From Terramyces sp. JEL0728 (Eukaryota; Chytridiomycota; Chytridiomycetes; Rhizophydiales; Terramycetaceae), in contig JADIIU010000079.1 in assembly GCA_027603945.1 (NCBI GenBank), positions 1 through 62,869 of the forward strand: 62,869 bases of DNA. The letters run 5' to 3'. Within the stretch, counting starts at the first letter, position 1. The number at the start of each line of letters is the position of its first letter. The notes beneath the pieces were generated by a model. The model did not search any database and was not told the DNA's origin. It saw nothing but the letters and a program-made list of their open reading frames with translations. This document shows positions 18,662-55,497 of the stretch, piece by piece. Both the position numbers and the translations under genes were made by a program.

Positions 18662-21300
18662 ATGAATCTGACTGTTAAACATCGACTGTTGAAAAACTGC
18701 ATGGTGAATATTCCGCTGACTTACTACTCGATCCTCCTCGACCAATCAACAGTACAATCAACTAACACAGACGAATTACGCATTGAAAGCCAATACGCAT
18801 TACCTAACCATAAACTCAGTCTCACAATCTGATTATCTGGAAATAGATACAAATTTTGCCAGCTGTTTAGGGCTGAAGGATGGACAGGTAATTTACTGTG
18901 AATTTGCTTTTGATTTGCCAATTTCAAAGATGGTTAATGTTGAACCAAAAACCACAGATGATTGGGAGATATTAGAGTTAAATGCTGGCTATTTGGAAGA
19001 ACAATTACTGAACCAAATCAAAGTTATACAAAAGCAAACCATTCCAATTTATATCAATACTACAGTTATTTATATTGATATTCAATGTGATGAACCTCGG
19101 CTGCTGTCTACTGATTCTGAAATTGCAGTTAAGCCAAAACCAAGGAAAAAACAAGTAAAATCTATCGCAGGTAAAGTTTATCCTCAAGAATGGACTTTAG
19201 TTCAAGGATTTGGCATTGGTGTAAACAACAAGGAAATGGTTGGAACCGTAATGGTTGAAAATATTGATTTTGTTCATATTCAGGTGCTTTTTCATTAATA
19301 CAAGCATGAGCACGGATTCACTAAAAAGTCAAACGGACCGAAACATTTCCTGACATGCTATTACCAACCCGAAAGCCATTTCATTTTGAATGAATATGAT
19401 ATGGGAATACTGCAAGCAGGACCATTATCAATCTTGAAAATCACAAAAATGGAACTACAAGTACCTCAAAAAGAAATTATACTTCAGTCTCAAGATAGAA
19501 ATTGTATTGAAAAGGTTAAAGACTATTTATTTGAATTTGCTACGAAAACAGATCCCATTTTGTTTGATGGAATGGAAATTACAGATTTGAATGTTACAAT
19601 AAGATTCAAAGAACCAAACCAATACTTTAGATTTACTATTAAACAACTAAACGAGCTGCAGTTTACTGTTGAGCAAAAGAATCTTGTATATTATGAAAAA
19701 AATGTTAAAAAAATTGGAGATCCGTTCAAGATGGTAGGGTATGAAAATCAAATTATCAGTTTGATTAATGATATACAAGATTACAAAAAAGTGCTAGTTA
19801 CTGGCAGCATAGGGTCTGGAAAAACTACACTCGCCAACACGATATCTCAATATCTAGTGAAATACTCGTCAGTGTATCCCATCATAATCAAGTGCCAAGA
19901 GTTGAAGCAATTGAATTTATCTGCTATTTTCAAGCAATTTGAACTTTTCCAAAAGGAATACGACTATCATTCACCCTCAATAATCATATTTGACAATTTG
20001 GATGTACTGTGCCCTGAAGAAGAAGGGTTAAGGTACAAACAATTAGGCTACTTGCTGGAAACGTTGAGTGCAGACATACTAGCAACAACCACTCTTCCTC
20101 TGAACCAGGTTGTTTCAATCTTTCATAATTTCAAGTTACCTCAGCCATCAAAGCAGCAAATGATGGAAATACTAGAAAACCAAAATATAGAAACTACTCA
20201 AGATATGGAAGGATACTCTCTACTTGATTTAGTCAAAGTAATAGAATTGGCAAAGAGAAAACAAAAAGATTTGAACGATATTATTAGCAATTACAAGCCG
20301 TTGAATTTAGCTAGCAGTAACCTAGAAAAAACCAATGTTAAATGGGATATGGTTGGCGGAATGAAAGCGACTAAACAGCTGTTGCTGGAAACACTGCAGT
20401 TCCCCAACTTGTACCCACGGCTATTCAAATCATCTCCGATCAGACTGCAAACTGGTATCCTACTGTATGGATACCCCGGCTGTGGAAAAACGCTACTCGC
20501 AAATGCAATTGCAACCGAGTGTGGTTTGAATTTTATTACTGTCAAAGGTCCTGAACTACTCAACAAGTATATAGGTTCCAGTGAACAGGCCGTGCGGGAC
20601 TTGTTTGATCGAGCAAAGCAAGCCAAACCGTGCTGCCTATTCTTTGATGAATTTGATAGCATAGCGCCTAGAAGAGGAGTAGACAATTCTGGTGTCACTG
20701 ACCGAGTTGTTAACCAGCTATTGACCGAAATTGATGGTGCTGAAGGTTTGGAAGGTGTGTACGTCCTCGGAGCTACCTCTCGTCCCGATATGATTGACCC
20801 AGCTTTACTTCGACCAGGTAGACTCGATAAATCTATTCTGTGTGACTTGCCTGATTATGAAGACCGACTGGATATTATCAAAGTTATCACTACAACAATC
20901 AAACTAAACAGCGAAATCAATCTCGAACAAGTTGCGCGAGATACAGATGGATACAGCGGAGCTGATTTGCAAAGTTTGCTCTACACCAGCCAGCTGGAAG
21001 CAATACAAGAGCGAATGGCTTATACGCAAATCACAAAAGAAGTTGACTTGAAGTATACCATACTCCGAGGTAAACCTGACCCCGATATTCTGCAAATGTT
21101 TGGCAAAGAGCAAACACGGGAAAAACAGCAACAAGTAAGATCCTTTAACGTAGGTGCAAGTGTTCAAGAAGCATTTGGAAACTGCAATGAGCAAAACGAG
21201 GAAGAGTTTGAGCGAAAATGACATTAGCAAGTTTGGTGGGTACTTTGATTTGTTTCAGGGCAAAAAAGTTCAGGCTGGTTCGAAAACTCTCCAAATGTAA
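18662..21300 (+). CDS. PEX1: Peroxisomal AAA ATPase Pex1
   Basis: Four exons: 18662-18751, 18771-19283, 19305-21134 and 21154-21300 (859 aa), with introns of 19, 21 and 19 nt. The N-terminal domain has VNVEPKTTDDWEILELNA, characteristic of PEX1. D1 has Walker A TGSIGSGKTT. D2 has GYPGCGKTLLANAIATE, Walker B CCLFFDEFDS and RPGRLDK. The last intron matters: without it the protein ends early, and with it the conserved tail HLETAMSKTRKSLSENDISKFGGYF is restored. Pex1 with Pex6 extracts the receptor Pex5 from the peroxisome membrane, so functional peroxisomes are expected. An AATAAA-like signal overlaps the stop codon. Confidence 0.95.
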
Positions 21301-21390
21301 TAAAACTGGTTTATATCATTACTCTATTTGTTCTTAGTTGACCGAAATTTCAGATGTTACCGACTTTAAGATGCATTTCAAATCAATTGT

Positions 21391-23519
21391 TTATTGCATG
21401 ACTCCCAAACTAGCCAATTTAAGTTTCAATTCAACTAACTCGACAGCCTGAACAGTTTGTAGATGATTACGCGCACTGTCTAACCAATCACCGGCAAGTA
21501 CTTTAACCCAACCGTTTAGTTGGTTGATTTCACGAGCTGCAGAATCTATATCATCATGATCAAGATAGTATTGAGCTCTTGAAAGGATAGAGTCAGTAGT
21601 GTTTCCAGGTACCAGGCCTTGTTTTGGTACAAGTGTGAATGATAGTAGCGCTGCGATTGCGTATGAGAGTGGGCCAGCATCTTTTGGGACTAACTGTGCT
21701 CTGTATAATGGCCTTTTGATTTTTTCGAAATGGTTCTTTAATTCCTCTTTAGAAACATAGGTATTTGATTCGACAGAGTTCAAAACAGTAGAAATTAATC
21801 CATCGTGCTTGCCTTGCTTTCTGAGAATGTTTAGTTCATCGTCGAAATTGGTGGATATTGGGGCATCTAATTTCGCCTTTAGTGCTCTGACAGACGCCAT
21901 TTCTTGCTGAATCAAATATGACCGGTTCAAGTGGAACGACGAATCCAGTGAAATTCTCTCCAACTGTTTAAGTTTAAGCGCTAAATGATCTAATCTTGCT
22001 AGGCGTCCTTCTCTTTCGGTATCCAATCTGCGTTTGATTTCCAACGACCAGAAAGCATCAAGTTGCTCAGCTTGCGATTTTAACTCTTTATCTAAAGCAG
22101 CGTGGAACAAGTCTTGCTGTTCCGTTAATCTGGTTTGTAATTCCTTTGCCGCAGATTCTTGGCCCACAACCCTTTCTTCTGCCATTTGAGAGGCAAAAGA
22201 TGACGTTAATCTTGCAGATGTGTCTGATAGAAGCTGATCGTAGTCTGATCTGATTTTGGCAATAGTTGATTCGAATGCTTGTGATTGTTCATGCAATGCT
22301 CTGGCCAATGTTGCAGACTCTTCAGTTTCAAGGTGTGAGAGATAATTGCCAAGTCCTGCCAATTGAGCTGCAGTTTTTTCCAGTCCAGCCTTGTTTTGAG
22401 ATGATTGTGCAACAACATGCAAATGCTCAGCCAGCCCTGTTATTTGGGTAATCAGTGATTGGAAAGCAGCTTCATTAGGAATTTGGATTTGTTCTGGAAT
22501 TAGTACTGGAATTGCTTCGACAGGCACCGGAATTGGCTCTTTTTCAAACGCAGGTGTTTCTTTTGGGGTTGCTTTTGCTTCAACTGGTTTCTTTTCCTTT
22601 TTTTCTTCCAATTTCTGCTCGACTTTCTTTTCTTTAGGCTTGCGCTCTTCCTTTTTTATTTCCGGTTTCGGTGCTTCCTTTACTTTTTCAATAACCGCTT
22701 TCGCTTCTGCAACTTTTTCAACTACAGGTTCAGCAACTGTTTTGATTTCCTTTTCAATTTTTGGAGCACTGTCTTCCCTCAATTGTTGGACAACTTGTTC
22801 TTTTACCTCTGCTACTTTTTCTTGGACTACATTTGGGTCTACCCTATGCACTCTAGGAGTCCTTGGCGCAGGCTTAGACCCAGTAACAAACCCAACGACA
22901 TTATCATAGGTTTGTTCAGCGCTGTCAACTACTCCCAGTACAAAATCTTCTCCTCTTTTGTAGGTGGTAGTAACAACATCCACAGTATCTCCAACAACTT
23001 TTTTCCCCTGATCAACCGTTTCAGCAACTTGATTCTTTGTATTTCCAACAGTTTTTTGAATCTTTTCGCTAGTATCATGAATGGTTTGCATAGTGGTGTT
23101 GTATCCATCCTGTGCCTTGTTGGCGATATCAACCGAAGATTTATATGCGGAATCAATGTACTCGCCAGTTTGTTTCTTGATATCTGATGCCTGTCTAACA
23201 GTCTGTTGATAAGTGGAGGAAATTTGATCGGCAGTTTTAGTTGCACTTGAATTGATTGTTTCCATATCAACTTTCTGCAAATCAGAAGAGACTTTATCGA
23301 CATAATCAAGGATCGTTTGACCTTGAGGTACATAGTCAAGCCAGATTTTGCGTACTTGTTCATTCTTTGTTGCCAAGTATGCTGTCCCTGTTACTGCTGC
23401 AGTAGTAACTACCACTGCGCCAACCAAGTTACGAGGACGAAAAGCCAAAGTGGACTAGATTAAAAACTTGGTACTTGGTGCCTCTTTTGAATTAATTTAG
23501 GAGCTCTGGTGCGCAACAT
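21391..23519 (-). CDS. MIC60: MICOS subunit Mic60 (mitofilin)
   Basis: Exons 23519-23475 and 23454-21391 (702 aa). The long ORF alone lacks an ATG; a 20-nt intron (23455-23474, TTAATCTAG end) joins it to a first exon encoding MLRTRAPKLIQKRHQS, a good mitochondrial presequence. A TM helix follows (LVGAVVVTTAAVTGTAYLA), then a Lys/Glu/Pro-rich stretch, a coiled coil (about 380-540) and the mitofilin signature (LVPKDAGPLSYAIAALLSF, NTTDSILSRAQYYLDHDDI, GWVKVLAGDWLDSARNHLQT). Mic60 sits in the inner membrane and shapes crista junctions. Its presence implies cristate mitochondria. Confidence 0.95.
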
Positions 23520-23727
23520 TTTATTTTTGGTTGCTTGATGACTGAAAAACTTTAGTGGAAATTTTTGAGATTGGAAATCGCTATCCAGCGTCTCTGCTCA
23601 GTCCTACTACAGGTGCAGCACAATGCTACTTGCTATTGACCTTTGCTGGCCGGCTGTAGTTACTACTTCCACTCATGTTGACACTTGATCACCTTCTGCA
23701 AGCCAACAACTCAATATTTCTATAAGA

Positions 23728-24339
23728 TTAATTTATTAATGAATCCAAATTTGGCGTAACTACATTTCTGACGTTCGAATGTCCATAAAATGACAATGTG
23801 CCCTCGTCTTTATCCAGCCCGCAAACATACTGCGGTATCTTGCTAGTACTCTGGTTAATATCAAACACCAAGTCGCCGACTATGATTTCCAACTTGCCGC
23901 TCTTACGTTTAACCAGTCTTGCTTCATCCTTTGGGAAAACCTGGGGAAATGTGAAAAACATTAGCGGATCTTGTAAGCAATAAAATACCTCTTTGTTGTG
24001 GTGATGGCGGTTTGATGATTGTTGGGTCCCATTCATCTAAATCTATAGTTTCATCCATAATTTCATCTACAGTGTCGACCAAATCCAAATCTGTTTTTGT
24101 GTATGTTTGGATAGAAGAAATCTCTGGTCTGCCAATAGTAGCAGTAGCTCTGGCAGCAGGTCCTGTAATTAATTCCAATTACCAAGTGCAAAAGGTCCTG
24201 AAGCAGTGATTTCACGCTCTTCTCTTTTTGGTTTTGGCTTTGGTTTCCTGTTGGCATTCTTTTGTTTATCTGCTTCAGGCACTTCTTGTTTAACCCTTCG
24301 TTTCGAAGGTATTTTGGGTTCAAACTTTTTTGTCGACAT
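23728..24339 (-). CDS. RPC53: RNA polymerase III subunit RPC4 (Rpc53)
   Basis: Exons 24339-24181, 24160-23989 and 23969-23728 (190 aa, short for the family). Introns of 20 nt and 19 nt restore TASGPFALG-PAARATA and PPSPQQR-DPLMFFTFPQVFP. The basic N-terminus (MSTKKFEPKIPSKRRVKQ) and C-terminal core (GKLEIIVGDLVFDIN, TLSFYGHSNVRNVVTPNLDSLI) match RPC4, a TFIIF-like Pol III subunit acting with RPC5 in initiation and termination. The middle acidic region (DEIMDETIDLDEWDP) is short. It is divergent from RRP41 with an 18-bp gap between ATGs. Confidence 0.88.
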
Positions 24340-40403: not shown

Positions 40404-41170
40404 ATGAACGCTCAAGACCAATATCAATTATTCAAGAAATACAGTAAAAAGTCGCCTGCTCGTTCCGAAAAATTAGAGAACCTAACAACAGTCCAATTCA
40501 CAGATTTCTCTCAAGATTTGTATGACGAGCTGAACAGACGCAATGATAAAGAATGCATGGATCCGTTCTTGCCAATTAATGAGTTATTCCATGCAAAGCG
40601 AAACCAAGCAAGGCAGAAATTGGCAACACTTGGTGAAGAAAGATTTGAGGATTTGATTGACGATTTCTGTGTTGAACATGAATACCGAGTGCTTGTAAAT
40701 AATACTAACCAAGGACCAATTGGAATTTGAAGTATCGGAATTAGCAAAAGAGTTTTCAGCAAAAGAGTTTTCAGCAAAAGAAAGCGCTCATGAGGATTTG
40801 GTTTTGCAACCAGCAGAGGATATCGCAAAAACAGAACCAAAGCCAGTACAGATTCCGGGAAGATTCCAATCGCTCTACCAACAGGATATCAGCCAAGAAC
40901 TCTTGGATTTCAAAACACAGTACCAAATCAAAGAACAAGCATACCAGGTAATTAATCAAGAAACACAAGATTTGAAAATGGGGTTTGCACTACTGCAAAG
41001 AAACTACCGTGAAATCAAAAGTGAGAATGAATTATTGCGGAATGAAAATAAGGAAACTAATATGCAACTAAAGGAACTGAAAGCAATGGTTTTGAAGCAG
41101 CAAAAAGTAAGATATTTCTAACTAGCTACTTGATTCTATGAACACAATCATGGGTATTGAAATTGAATAA
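40404..41170 (+). CDS. Short SPA2-like polarity protein (SHD/GIT repeats plus coiled coil)
   Basis: Exons 40404-40694, 40714-41106 and 41126-41170 (242 aa), introns 19 and 19 nt. The second intron adds a short conserved end (LLDSMNTIMGIEIE). Two SHD (Spa2-homology) repeats: LTTVQFTDFSQDLYDELNRR and RNQARQKLATLGEERFEDLIDD, separated by FLPINELFHAK. Then AKEFSAKEFSAKES, a 15-bp in-frame tandem duplication, and a coiled coil (about 170-230). In yeast the Spa2 SHD binds MAPKKs and Rab GAPs at sites of polarised growth. Head-to-tail with a longer paralogue. Confidence 0.85.
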
Positions 41171-50104: not shown

Positions 50105-50845
50105 TTAGAATTTAGTAGTACGGCCATCGCCGCAGAATTCAGCGTTGGATTTCAAAGACAGTGGTGCTCTGCACTTGAAGGAAGATTTTTCACAACAAGT
50201 AGAAGCGCATTCGTTGTCAGCAGCACAAGGGCCGGTGATGAATTGAGTACCAAGTGGTTTTCCAGATCCTTTTCCAACTTGACCATTTCCGCTGTTGCCG
50301 TTGCCAGTGTTGGCAGCAGGAGCTGCAGCTTTTCCACCACCAATATTTACAACTTGTGCACCGTGGTCAAAGTTTGGAGTTCTTCCGTCTCCACAAGCTT
50401 GCACACCAGGAGTTAAAGATAACACTGCTCTGCACTTCTTTTGGGTTTTTTCGCAACATCCTTGTTGACCAGCAAATGGAGCGCAATCATTATCAGCAAC
50501 ACAAGCACCAGTGATGAATTGAGTACCGCTTCCAGATCCGGCACCAGTGGAAGCCTTGTTTGCGCCAGTGTTGGTATTAGTATTTGCAGGAGCAGCGTTT
50601 CCACCACCAATGTTTACAACTTGTGCACCGTGGTCAAAGTTTGGAGTTCTTCCGTCTCCACAAGCTTGAACTCCAGGAGTTAAAGATAACACTGCTCTGC
50701 ATTTCTTTTGGGTTTTTTCGCAACAACCAGCTTGTCCAGCAAACGGATTGCAGTCAGAATCTTGTTGACATGCGCCAGTAATGAATTGTCCGGCAGATAC
50801 GGTGTGTGCAGCAAAGAATAAAGATACAAGTGAAGTGAATTTCAT
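50105..50845 (-). CDS. Secreted protein with three Cys-rich repeats (BAS2-like pattern)
   Basis: 246 aa; signal peptide MKFTSLVSLFFAAHTVSA, chosen over an earlier ATG. Three ~50-residue repeats: QFITGAC..D.DC-PFAGQ-GCCEKTQKKCR...VQACGDGRTPNF. Repeats 1 and 2 are almost identical at both protein and DNA level (about 120 bp); repeat 3 is shorter and diverged (ECASTCCEKSSFKCRAPLSL). Gly/Asn/Ala linkers join them. The C-D-x-DC...CC...KC...CG pattern resembles biotrophy-associated secreted proteins of plant-infecting fungi, from memory only. TATA-like TTTTATATTTT about 40 bp upstream. No intron. Confidence 0.75.
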   Translation of the reverse strand: MKFTSLVSLFFAAHTVSAGQFITGACQQDSDCNPFAGQAGCCEKTQKKCRAVLSLTPGVQACGDGRTPNFDHGAQVVNIGGGNAAPANTNTNTGANKASTGAGSGSGTQFITGACVADNDCAPFAGQQGCCEKTQKKCRAVLSLTPGVQACGDGRTPNFDHGAQVVNIGGGKAAAPAANTGNGNSGNGQVGKGSGKPLGTQFITGPCAADNECASTCCEKSSFKCRAPLSLKSNAEFCGDGRTTKF

Positions 50846-51547: not shown

Positions 51548-54500
51548 TTATTCATTCAAGACAATATTAGCGCCAGAAGTACTAGCAACTCGTTTAGGGA
51601 ACGAACACACTTGATCCTTGACACTAGTGACTTTAAACACACCTTCAAGTCCAGTTTGGATAACATACTCTTTCTCGACATTATCAACACTAAAGCTTTC
51701 CACCATCTTTTTGTTCTTGCGAGTATAGGTGAAACTGAAGGGTCCTTGTCCTACAAAGTGAATACGAATCGGCAAAGAGTCGCCTTGGTTGATATCTGTT
51801 ATTAAATCACTACCATCGGCTATAATAGCTTTTGGCAACGTATTGATTGTGGTTGATAGGGTTGTATATTCTTGACAGCAATTGTACTTGTTGCAGATCT
51901 TTTTGATCTGGAATACACCTGGCTTACCAACCCATACATTAAACACTGGATCATTCAAAGTTACTGTTTGCTCCTTTTTCCAATCATATGTTATTGAGAA
52001 TGGCGGAGTGCCTTGGAGAGTGTAAGATAGCATGTCACCAATGCAAATGGAAGGTGGGTTGAGAGAAGTCATTGACGCTTGATCATTGATTTCAATATAT
52101 GTGCTTGGCTTGACAAATTCATCTAGTTTGCCAGTACATCTAGAATCCCTTAGTGAATCGAGAACAAATTCATGTTTCCCCATTTGACTAATATGGACAT
52201 TGAACTCGTACTTGTATTTGTCACCATGTTTGATACCAGAGGTTTCAAAGTCAATGTACTTTACATAGTTATTGTCCTGTAATTGTTGAATGGTTCCTTT
52301 GAATGGAGGATGCCCTGTGAGTTCCAAATCAAGCGTAAATGTATTGTTTTGTTTCAAGCAGTGATAAACTTGTTGTACCGGCTTAGCAAATTCACCTTTT
52401 GGCAACTCGTAAACTTCTTGTTCGATAACCAAGCCAGCTAGTTGGATAGGCTGCTTGTAGTTTTCATCTGAAATAGAATTGATTTTAAATGTTTGCTTGC
52501 CTGGTCTGGTGGTATCAGTTTCTAAACGCAAATAGTCCAATTCGACAACCGACAACAGTGGATCTTTGTTGAAATTTGTTTGGTATTGAATCTTGAACGG
52601 CGGCTTACCCGTCAAATCAAGTTGGAAATGGTTAGACTCAAATTGGCATTTAGGTTCGATCACTTGCTTCTTAAATCCAATTGTTGGTTTTGGGATATTG
52701 GTGATTTGGAAGCGATTGGTGCCTATATTAAATGCCATTTACCATCAACCTTTCCTTGGCAAACTGAATCAGACAGGGACAAGAGTTCATAAGTACCAGG
52801 TCCTTGATGAATTTTCAGGTATCTAGCACCATTTTCCAGCCGGACAGACTCTTCCCTAGTATCTTTCTTGTACTTGAGGTTGAATGGACCCCTTCCAAAC
52901 AAGGCGATAGGAACATTTGCCAGCGTGTTTTCCAAAACAAGGATATTGGTAAGACTAGGCAAAGAAACAGTAGGAACAGTATCAACAATCTCAATGCGAG
53001 TAATTTCAGTGGATAATTTTCTTTTACACCCATTTCCGTCCGTAATTTCAGTTAGTTCGACTTGATAAATCCCGCCCTTTTCAAATTCTAGTTTCAATTC
53101 AGAGTGTTCATCTTTTTGATCTATAGAGCGTTTTTCAAGTTTGGATCCAAAGGTAATATCGTAATCAATCTTCCACGGCCCAGTTCCCATTGCATTAATC
53201 CTCAAAATGATTGGTTCGTTTTTGCACTTTATAAATGATTTCGGCGAAGTGAATTTGGCATTTGAATGTGGATGAATAATTTGTTTGAACGATTGATTGA
53301 TAGGAATGCCAATTTGGTACAACGAGTCGCCTAAATTAATATTAATTACCAACACGGTCAAAGACATACTTGTAGACACCAGGTTCTTGCGGTTTCAAGA
53401 CCAATTCAGCTCGGTTCTTGTCAAATTTGCTAACCTCATCCTTGAGTTTGAAAGTATTGCCATTGGCAGTCTTTTCAATATGCCAATAGAGGATATACGG
53501 TTTTGAACCAGTAAAAACAAAGTCAACATTGGTTCCAACAGTTCCAAAACATGATTCTTCAATTGTTGATTGGGTAAATGAAAAAGTAGGTGGCAATACT
53601 TGTTTGATTTGGATTTGCTGTTTCTCGATTGTGTTTTCACAGAATTGATCTTTAATCTTCAACAATTTGTAGTAGCCGCTTTCAAATGTCTTGAAACTAT
53701 GTCTGTAATCAATGTTGTCAAAGTGTAACGGTTGAGCAATCAAGTCATCTCTGACAAGCTCCAAGTCAAGGGTGAATGGACCATTTCCGTAATTGGTGAT
53801 ATCCACATCAACGTTTGGTGCCTGTTCGATTTGCGCGTCATAAACAGTTTTGATCTTTAATTCACTTTGATCAAATGTACTAGTTGGGAGTGGGTAAACC
53901 AATACTTCTTTCGTTTCGATTGAATCCAGTTGTATATCATTCTTTAGGAAAGGCAATGTGGATTTGGTTTTCCAAGTAATCGCGTTTTCGTTACCGTCAA
54001 TGATTCTAACAACAGAAAACAAGTGTTTATCAGTTGAAACAGCTTTCAAGGGGATATTAATCAATTTCTTTGTCGGTTTAATAGCCTCTAGCAAGTCGCT
54101 AATGATTTCGTTTTTGCTCTTTTCTCTATCAGCCATTTCCTTTTTTTCTACTGGCACAGTCATATCAACAATACGCTCATCATTCCCTATTCTTTCCATG
54201 TAAAAGAATTCAAATGGCCCAACACCGGTGATTTCAACACCTATTGTTATTCCAGCTTACCAAGATTGATCTGCTCGTTTAAACAAACATTTTGGGCTTC
54301 CTCCCATTCAAAAGTAGGGCAGTTATAAATAGAAATCAAATGGTTGTTTAGTAATTTTGCTTTGTCTTGTCCTGTGACACTATTCAATTCAAATACTCCA
54401 GTATGGCTGATTGGTATTTCATAGTGATCACTTTCAGTGGTGATTTTTTCTGGCTTGTGCGGGTGTAGAGTGTACATGATTTCAAACGGACCTTTTCCTT

Positions 54501-54990
54501 TGATTGTAACTGAAATATTTGTGTTTCCCGTCAAACAAATATTTTTTTCGCTGGTATTGATTTGGCACAGAGTTGGTGGTTTGATATTAACTGTTATAGA
54601 GCCTAGGGTTAAATCTCCACATACCTAGGGTTAGTAAAATATACCCAAGATGAACGAGTCGTTCAAGAGCGATGATTCATAGTCGCTTTCCGGCAAAATC
54701 AATTCCTGAGAGTAAAATGCTACTACTCCACAATTGATTAGAAACAAGCAAAAAGCACCAATCATTATCCCCAAATACTTTATCCTTGGCCGACTGTGCA
54801 TTCGTAATAAAACTAGAAAGCATAAATCAAATACTGTCCACACAAATATTTGATTTGGTTCCAAATACCCAGATTCTTGATCAAACAAAAATGATGGCTT
54901 GATTAAACTGATTGCATGTCCAACTTTAATAGTCTGTATTGAAAAAAACAAGAGAGTATACACCCTCCTTGTATTGACACTGTCCAACAT
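51548..54990 (-). CDS. POM152: Nuclear pore membrane protein Pom152
   Basis: Five exons (54990-54645, 54602-54261, 54240-53350, 53330-52743, 52722-51548), 1113 aa. Three simple introns of 19-20 nt plus one composite 42-nt intron. The N-terminus has hydrophobic segments (IFVWTVFDLCFLVLL; YLGIMIGAFCLFLINCGVVAFY). The lumenal part is a chain of Ig-like beta domains with recurring GxGPFxxxY motifs (GKGPFEIMYTL, GVGPFEFFYM, GTGPWKIDYD, GRGPFNLKYK, GQGPFSFTYTRK), typical of POM152. Splicing restores INLG-VEITGVGPF, FDRVG-DSLYQIG, GKVDG-TNRFQIT. Forms the lumenal ring of the fungal nuclear pore. Its presence supports a fungal assignment. Confidence 0.93.
54603..54644 (-). other. Composite 42-nt intron in POM152: two back-to-back intron units
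   Basis: Two units abut: 54644-54625 (20 nt, GTATATTTTACTAACCCTAG) and 54624-54603 (22 nt, GTATGTGGAG...TAACCCTAG). Each has its own GTA start and TAAC-CCTAG end. Removing only the first shifts the frame into a stop; removing both gives FILG-SITVNIKPP and a gene divisible by three. Confidence 0.75.
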
Positions 54991-55025: not shown

Positions 55026-55497
55026 ATGTACTGCAGCATAAAAGAGAATGAATCGCTCATTTCTACACAGTTATTACTGCAGAAATACGTACCAAAGAAG
55101 CATAAAATAAGTATTCGATTGTATTTGGGACCAAAGAAACTGTATTTGATTACTATTGGGAAAAAGAATTATATTTTTATCGAAAAGATTGTTTATTGCC
55201 CTGATATTACATTGATACTGAATAAATTAAAGAATATTTGGACGCCAAGACAAACTATAGGTAAATGTAGTTAATCGACAGGTAAATGTAGTTAATCGAC
55301 AGGTAATTGTGAAATAACAAGAAATACCAGGAAATCTGTTTGTGAGGGAAAAGGATTCTTGCTTTATCGGTAACTTTTTTATAGGCTCAATGTACAAAGG
55401 ACTGCTTTGCTTATCTACACTAGACTTGTTTGAAGGGGATTATATTGAAGGCGGAGATGAAGCAATTTGCCTGCACTTGATTAAAATATTGAGTTGA
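55026..55497 (+). CDS. MED20: Mediator subunit Med20 (Srb2-like)
   Basis: Exons 55026-55260 and 55322-55497 (136 aa), joined across a 61-nt intron array; total length divides by three. I assign Srb2/Med20 from three stretches: MYCSIKENESL, LNKLKNIWTPRQTIEIPG and GNFFIGSMYKGLLCLSTLD, which parallel yeast Srb2 segments YRCSIKN, LSNIWMQRQLIKG and FKGLLIEL. It is short and may lack an N-terminal exon. Med20 sits in the Mediator head module, contacting TBP and Med18. The 15-nt GTAAC...TATAG inside exon 2 is treated as coding because it is in frame without stops. Confidence 0.68.
55261..55321 (+). other. Triple tandem intron array in MED20
   Basis: Three complete intron-like units lie head to tail with no exon between: 55261-55281 and 55282-55302 (identical 21-mers, GTAAATGTAG...AATCGACAG), then 55303-55321 (19 nt, GTAATTGTGAAATAACAAG). 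Each begins GTAA, has a TAAT/TAAC element and ends AG. Keeping one 21-mer would introduce an in-frame TAA, so all must be removed. Confidence 0.85.

Follow-up and report, generated by a model that had tools for sequence, protein, structure and literature searches.

The 61-nt interruption of a MED20-like gene in Terramyces sp. JEL0728, a chytrid fungus (Chytridiomycota, Rhizophydiales, Terramycetaceae), is, with good though incomplete confidence from its sequence, best read as three complete U2-type introns lying end to end, of which the first two would be recent duplicates of each other, and which would be removed in steps. The array is not isolated but belongs to a recurring type, of which 40 distinct arrays, comprising 135 units and two to eight units each, were verified letter for letter. 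A wider proposal, favored with somewhat less assurance, is that introns of this genome multiply in place via their own AGGTA junctions, building arrays of up to eight units that would be excised serially by splicing machinery adapted to introns of ~20 nt. The window, i.e., the whole stretch of DNA that was analyzed, is contig C79 with its 62,869 bases, from an assembly of 231 contigs and 15,016,339 bases in total. The MED20-like locus, which occurs once in the assembly, is composed as follows:

55026..55497, plus strand: MED20-like gene, 472 nt including the stop codon and 411 nt once the array is removed
55026..55260, plus strand: exon 1, ending in phase 1 with the final bases AG
55261..55281, plus strand: intron unit 1, 21 nt, GTAAATGTAGTTAATCGACAG (placed by the sequence, Tandem Repeats Finder, and the gene finder)
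55282..55302, plus strand: intron unit 2, 21 nt, identical to unit 1 (GTAAATGTAGTTAATCGACAG; placed by the same three sources)
55303..55321, plus strand: intron unit 3, 19 nt, GTAATTGTGAAATAACAAG, itself not recognizable as a copy (p 0.40)
55259..55306, plus strand: exact period-21 stretch of 48 nt, whose AGGTAA junction repeats give 6 nt of homology for slippage
55322..55497, plus strand: exon 2, including the stop codon

Along the strand, the exon end ...ACTATAG is followed by GTAAATGTAGTTAATCGACAG, GTAAATGTAGTTAATCGACAG, and GTAATTGTGAAATAACAAG, and then by the exon start AAATACCAGG. An earlier note on this DNA had described an array of 21, 21, and 19 nt, and the sequence itself, the tandem scan, the gene finder, and Tandem Repeats Finder (which independently reports 55259–55310 with a period of 21) all place it here; the identity of units 1 and 2, which the same note had claimed, is confirmed by the exact period of 21 over 48 nt. 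This stretch is one of two exact tandem duplications with a period of 15–30 in the 62,869-base window, the other having a period of 15 at 40743. A frame-aware gene finder, to which other GT..AG lengths of up to 90 nt were open, places exactly these three units; an earlier version of the finder, with a penalty on zero-length exons, left the array uncalled. AGGTAA stands at 55259, 55280, and 55301, and AGGT is thus found at each junction; because exon 1 ends in AG, each of the three GTAA starts is preceded by AG, and both internal junctions read AG|GT, with an acceptor abutting a donor. All three units also carry the GTAA start, internal TAAY element, and AG end that had been ascribed to them. 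In units 1 and 2, TAAT lies 4 nt before the AG, a spacing that is rare here (5 of 262 introns), and in unit 3, TAAC lies 1 nt before it (7 of 262). With flexible branch spacing, the units score below average in the intron model (percentiles 23, 23, and 5); a motif score with fixed branch spacing ranked them low for that very reason and was dropped in favor of the flexible version. Full removal leaves 472 − 61 = 411 nt, i.e., 136 amino acids and a stop codon, and none of the seven partial-removal products is open and in frame, in agreement with the earlier statement that only removal of all 61 nt yields the 411-nt frame. Judged from its GT..AG ends, its branch motif, and the frame restored on removal, each unit has the appearance of a U2-type intron.

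The gene is likely, not certainly, MED20, the sequence similarity being weak. The Pfam Med20 match (16.5 bits, E 0.0061) lies below the curated cut-off of 25 and spans the array junction; taken separately, exon 1 scores 11.8 bits and exon 2 gives no match. In a phmmer search, KLKNIWTPRQTI^EIPGN.. was aligned across the junction with yeast Med20 ..KLSNIWMQRQLIKG.. (E 0.75), NIW..RQ adjoining the junction in this alignment, and an unrelated protein ranked just above it in the same search (E 0.69). Twenty candidates of comparable length were compared with the product, and none proved a relative at E ≤ 1. The frame argument is independent of the gene identification.

The introns of this genome are mostly 19–22 nt long. 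Counts of GTA..TAAY..AG by length in the window show a clear excess at 19 and 20 nt that becomes smaller at 21–22 nt (19, 23, 7, and 7 at 19, 20, 21, and 22 nt, vs. about 4 expected at each), and isolated excesses occur at 42 nt (9 vs. 3.1 expected) and 52 nt (11 vs. 2.9). The gene finder was started from GT, AG, and a flat length prior of 12–130 nt, with A at donor position 3 given a simple bonus; before training (iteration 0), 95 of its 162 introns were already 19–21 nt long, and the trained version placed 262 of 273 ab-initio introns at 18–25 nt, ten being longer than 25 nt. The branch motif is YTAAY, which most often precedes the AG by 2–3 nt (109 + 71 of 262); TAAY is absent from 63 of the 262, and 80 of the 262 are preceded by an exon AG. 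Undivided longer introns are also present. That of RPS3 (L009) is 45 nt long, and the product ..ISKKRK^FVADG.. aligns gap-free across the site; further candidates measure 48, 60, 61, and 75 nt. Altogether, eight longer undivided introns or candidates of 45–87 nt were noted (L009, L011, L019, two in L023, L026, L038, and L039), and five of the eight start with GTAAG, the RPS3 intron alone having been checked by homology. G at donor position +5, set aside as a test of one-step splicing, is found in 7 of 14 long candidates, several of which look false, in 12 of 39 first units of arrays (the set without SRP72), and in 61 of 305 short introns. The longer GTAAG introns are possibly a second intron class.

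A search for U6 returned two matches within a duplicated segment, which, at 27 bits vs. a gathering score of 44, were not taken as U6. Near-identical segments are present twice on contigs C4, C18, C26, C44, C86, and C37, and also on C111 and C199 (L004 and L003). Six pairs, the C37 pair being set aside, were compared and are 98.4–100% identical, three over 3 kb and three over 191 bases; five of the six lie on the same contig and strand, 7–62 kb apart. Segmental duplication could account for them, as could an assembly in which haplotypes were joined. One intron in a duplicated segment differs in length between L003 (21 nt) and L004 (20 nt).

A second array lies next to the MED20-like gene, in the gene of the nucleoporin POM152:

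51548..54990, minus strand: POM152 gene (our model, 1113 aa)
54625..54644, minus strand: POM152 array unit 1, 20 nt, GTATATTTTACTAACCCTAG
54603..54624, minus strand: POM152 array unit 2, 22 nt, GTATGTGGAGATTTAACCCTAG, directly abutting unit 1

With both units out, the product reads ..ESSLLNDSFILG^SITVNIKPPT.., and identical residues are found in Boothiomyces macroporosus HK103_006513. The public POM152 protein of Terramyces sp. JEL0728 (HDV01_007160) is spliced differently at the array: it can be reproduced by a 210-nt intron (54834–54625, minus strand) that ends at the acceptor of unit 1, and it translates unit 2 and is devoid of residues kept in B. macroporosus. In this public model, zero-length exons seem to have defeated gene prediction. 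Elsewhere in the window, an M13 peptidase has its best named match in Boothiomyces sp. JEL0838 (68%), and a direct repeat of 156 nt joins 50325–50480 with 50592–50747 at 93% identity.

An array-aware finder, in which zero-length exons are allowed, covered 263 kb, namely the window and twenty 10-kb stretches (L005–L024), and called 314 sites: 310 single introns, three pairs in POM152 (20 + 22 nt), TOP1 (L021), and a REEP/Yop1-like gene (L023), and one triple, that of MED20. Read directly, the TOP1 array contains a third unit (22 + 21 + 21 nt). In the twenty stretches, which were not selected for arrays, 2 of 263 sites are arrays; the number of arrays per genome is put, roughly and with a very wide error, at about 150 (Poisson range 18–540). 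The shortest of the 252 exons between called sites is 8 nt long, and zero-length exons therefore form a separate class.

Genome-wide patterns in which an intron end abuts an intron start were run in five versions, giving 24, 6, 22, 24, and 4 matches vs. 1, 0, 2, 3, and 0 for the reversed patterns; the version with six matches touches three places only, with four of the six inside one array. The first pattern matched 24 times with a spacer of 0 and three times with a spacer of one base, a difference that arises partly since exons often end in AG. Because of this exon AG, the pattern counts were distrusted and both units were checked, and the raw counts were rejected as array counts, the zero-gap pattern also catching single introns that follow an exon AG. 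A frame-aware array was found at the matched junction in 8 of 20 loci cut out from the first pattern, and short stretches around pattern matches held a motif-scored array in 22 of 39 cases and none in 17; these 39 stretches and the loci already in the set cover all matches of three patterns (24, 22, and 24). The 40 verified arrays comprise 17 pairs, eight triples, seven arrays of four units, four of five, one of six, one of seven, and two of eight, so that 23 have at least three units. Twenty are anchored by the reading frame (13 with at least three units; those of TOP1, the SRP72-like gene, and L047c were parsed partly by hand) and twenty rest on motif score (10 with at least three units). 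The genome-wide search for exact tandem copies of introns that the earlier note had called for was carried out in part, through these patterns, and identical neighbors were found in 4 of the 40 arrays, including that of MED20.

The most striking locus is L047 (G000:C128, about 21245–24284), where five arrays lie within 3 kb: four on one strand, of 7, 3, 8, and 3 units, and one of 8 units on the other. Five exact 20-nt copies of GTAAAACAAGACTAACTCAG occur within an eight-unit array of C128, and the eight-unit array on the opposite strand contains three exact 23-nt copies. This stretch of C128 is an array hot spot.

Several arrays lie in conserved genes. In PSMA7 (proteasome alpha-4), ..FQVEY^ALEAV.. 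aligns gap-free over the two units (E 9e-103), and in TOP1, ..YDG^KAVDL.. does so over the three units (E 5.5e-141). Across ten proteins examined, a Pfam domain spans 7 of 13 arrays:

Spanned by a Pfam domain: PSMA7 (2 units), PIS1 (5 units), HAT1 (2 units), and the GTF3C1 winged helix (8 units)
Spanned by PH_TFIIH: TFB1 (4 units), at 23.9 bits, below the cut-off of 27.1
Spanned by HOOK_N: one array of 7 units, with two residues only inside the match, and one of 3 units

The other six of these 13 arrays, in VMS1, SPO11, APC8, REEP, and, with two arrays, the HOOK gene, lie outside a clear Pfam match, and for the PIS1 product no solved structure was matched at 1e-5. Among 506 partial-splice products of 18 frame-anchored arrays, five are open and in frame.

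How the arrays would leave the RNA can be approached through their junctions. The 20 frame-anchored arrays contain 74 units and 54 junctions, 51 of which read AG|GT; the arrays were mostly found through junction signals, and the 20 motif-only arrays are unable to reveal broken junctions. The 39 junctions that were unused in finding the arrays comprise 36 AG|GT, two AG|GC, and one TG|GT, although the array-aware finder itself had called four of them (in POM152, TOP1, and REEP), so that the set is not wholly selection-free. Where the adjoining spacers are at most half identical (31 of the 39; mean identity 0.25, with 0.32 for random introns), the counts are 28, two, and one. A T[AG]AN element is present in 68 of the 74 units. 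Two arrays contain one GC donor each, L045 1423–1542 (SRP72-like) and L047 1436–1600, and in L045 one AG is also replaced by TG; the units concerned may be decaying or may have fused.

The strongest alternative, to which we assign a real but clearly minor probability, is that each array leaves in a single step, at MED20 as one 61-nt intron, with the internal sites as leftovers of duplication. The undivided 45-nt RPS3 intron makes such removal possible in principle, the 48-, 60-, 61-, and 75-nt candidates point the same way, and fission yeast offers a precedent in which a single intron extends over 24-bp duplicates, two or four in number (Zhu and Niu, 2013b, in the account available from PMC4974935). 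If removal occurred in one step, however, the internal sites would be expected to decay once the spacers had diverged, and their retention, at 36 of the 39 incidental junctions and, where the spacers are unalike, at 28 of 31, is consistent with each unit being recognized. The unit length, which stays at 18–25 nt throughout all 20 frame-anchored arrays (three of them hand-parsed), also speaks against one-step removal, as does the rarity of undivided long introns, which is about that of the arrays (five vs. four of 314 sites, some of the five being doubtful). Singly spliced units, each an intron of its own with zero-length exons between, are thus the most likely arrangement on the sequence evidence. 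We infer both the splicing itself and its stepwise course: the spliceosome would take out one unit at a time, and the order would be immaterial because each removal sets the exon AG beside the following GTA.

The origin of the units is a separate question. Of 95 pairs of neighboring units, 16 show similarity at p < 0.01, where 0.95 would be expected; nine of the 16 are identical, and the 16 fall in 8 of the 40 arrays, leaving 32 arrays without alike neighbors at this threshold. The remaining 79 pairs barely exceed units drawn from different arrays (mean score 3.53 vs. 2.84, z 2.0). With 16 alike pairs against 79 unalike ones, in-register duplication does occur, but the majority of arrays must be old or have been formed in another way. 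At MED20, units 1 and 2 look like a local tandem duplication in which the duplicated segment is the intron and not an exonic AGGT segment. Beyond its two places, the 21-nt unit has no further copy in 15.0 Mb within three mismatches; the near-identical copies at many loci that would mark an introner were thus not found for it, and this single-locus occurrence therefore speaks against a dispersing introner as the source of the array. Unit 3 shows no detectable copy relation to unit 2 (p = 0.40), and duplication is for this reason shown for units 1 and 2 only. Intron multiplication by tandem duplication, as the earlier note had read the locus, accordingly holds for the first two units, which are identical and without another copy, with no detectable sign of it in the third.

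Separate insertions of units at an existing AG|GT junction, in place of duplication, would account for the 79 of 95 neighbors that are unalike at p < 0.01 and for a MED20 unit 3 unlike unit 2; against them stand the nine identical and seven further alike neighbors and the MED20 unit's lack of any other genomic copy within three mismatches, and we hold this origin to be unlikely. Under the favored duplication, a single 21-nt intron would have been duplicated in register, very recently, to give MED20 units 1 and 2. We infer that the AGGTAA junction repeats assisted, by slippage or unequal repair; slippage is among the mechanisms proposed for intron gain by repeat expansion or duplication (PMC2395259, PMC4974935, as far as the available portions of these articles go). 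Because an intron of about 20 nt is self-contained, such a duplication would be near neutral here, the mRNA being unchanged if each copy is spliced. Sequence between the splice signals would afterwards change from copy to copy, with GT, branch motif, and AG preserved, and the many unalike arrays may have resulted from this. An assembly or sequencing error, a pseudogene, or a misidentified gene is very improbable: the weak MED20 match, the failure to find a relative among proteins of comparable length, and an assembly that partly holds near-identical segments twice would favor it, but unalike arrays in conserved genes (PSMA7, TOP1, and POM152) cannot stem from collapsed or expanded repeats, and the MED20 locus was found once, with open frame and flanks.

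Intron multiplication is an old question for which few cases have been caught in the act. Exact, near-exact, and fully diverged arrays coexist in this one genome, and duplication, divergence constrained by the splice signals, and decay could thereby be read and dated; if the proposal is true, intron number rises stepwise while proteins remain unchanged. A practical warning also follows for annotation, in that the public POM152 model disagrees with the Boothiomyces macroporosus protein where the array lies, and none of the 20 candidates compared with the MED20-like product was related to it at E ≤ 1. Short introns, abutting AG|GT sites, and tandem duplication are each known; many exonless arrays of ~20-nt introns within one genome appear to be new. 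Among the literature matches listed (titles and openings of abstracts, with subscription journals mostly outside), neither end-to-end arrays of complete introns nor chytrid introns of ~20 nt were found.

The following comparisons draw on the portions available of each source. In size, the units resemble the introns for which PMC12316389 cites Bigelowiella (18 nt) and Stentor (15 nt), these also being of about 20 nt or less; end-to-end arrays in these organisms are not mentioned in the available part of that article, the comparison being one with literature. The arrays share with stwintrons (PMC7138796, PMC5639578) the presence of more than one U2 intron, consecutive removal (predicted here), and small duplications proposed in their origin. 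Stwintrons, however, are nested and removed from the inside out, whereas the present units abut and each is complete, with donor, branch motif, and acceptor; in the wider sense of the term given in PMC7138796, interruption of an essential element is no longer required. As in the ratchet-point recursive splicing of Drosophila, with its "0-nt" exons (PMC8605326), AG and GT abut; here, too, removal of one unit would rebuild the donor, and the mRNA would bear no trace. Ratchet points, by contrast, lie in long introns and involve a cryptic exon that is later skipped, whereas here the units are 18–25 nt long, up to eight in number, and followed immediately by the next, the entire MED20 array measuring 61 nt. 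The dual-specific splice sites of the UBC array (PMC10809524) are similar in the tandem arrangement of AGGT, which there can serve as both 5′ and 3′ site and here may do so, and in the connection of repeats with intron birth; UBC units, however, are coding and variably kept, whereas the present ones do not code and nearly every partial product loses the frame. The addition of introns by repeat expansion is likewise known from Cryptococcus CNN00420, where it is polymorphic (PMC2395259), and addition by duplication from potato RdRp and the AGGT model (PMC4974935). The AGGT model duplicates an exonic segment, and an intron–exon structure is duplicated in potato, whereas in Terramyces the intron alone is duplicated and the exons between the copies are of zero length.
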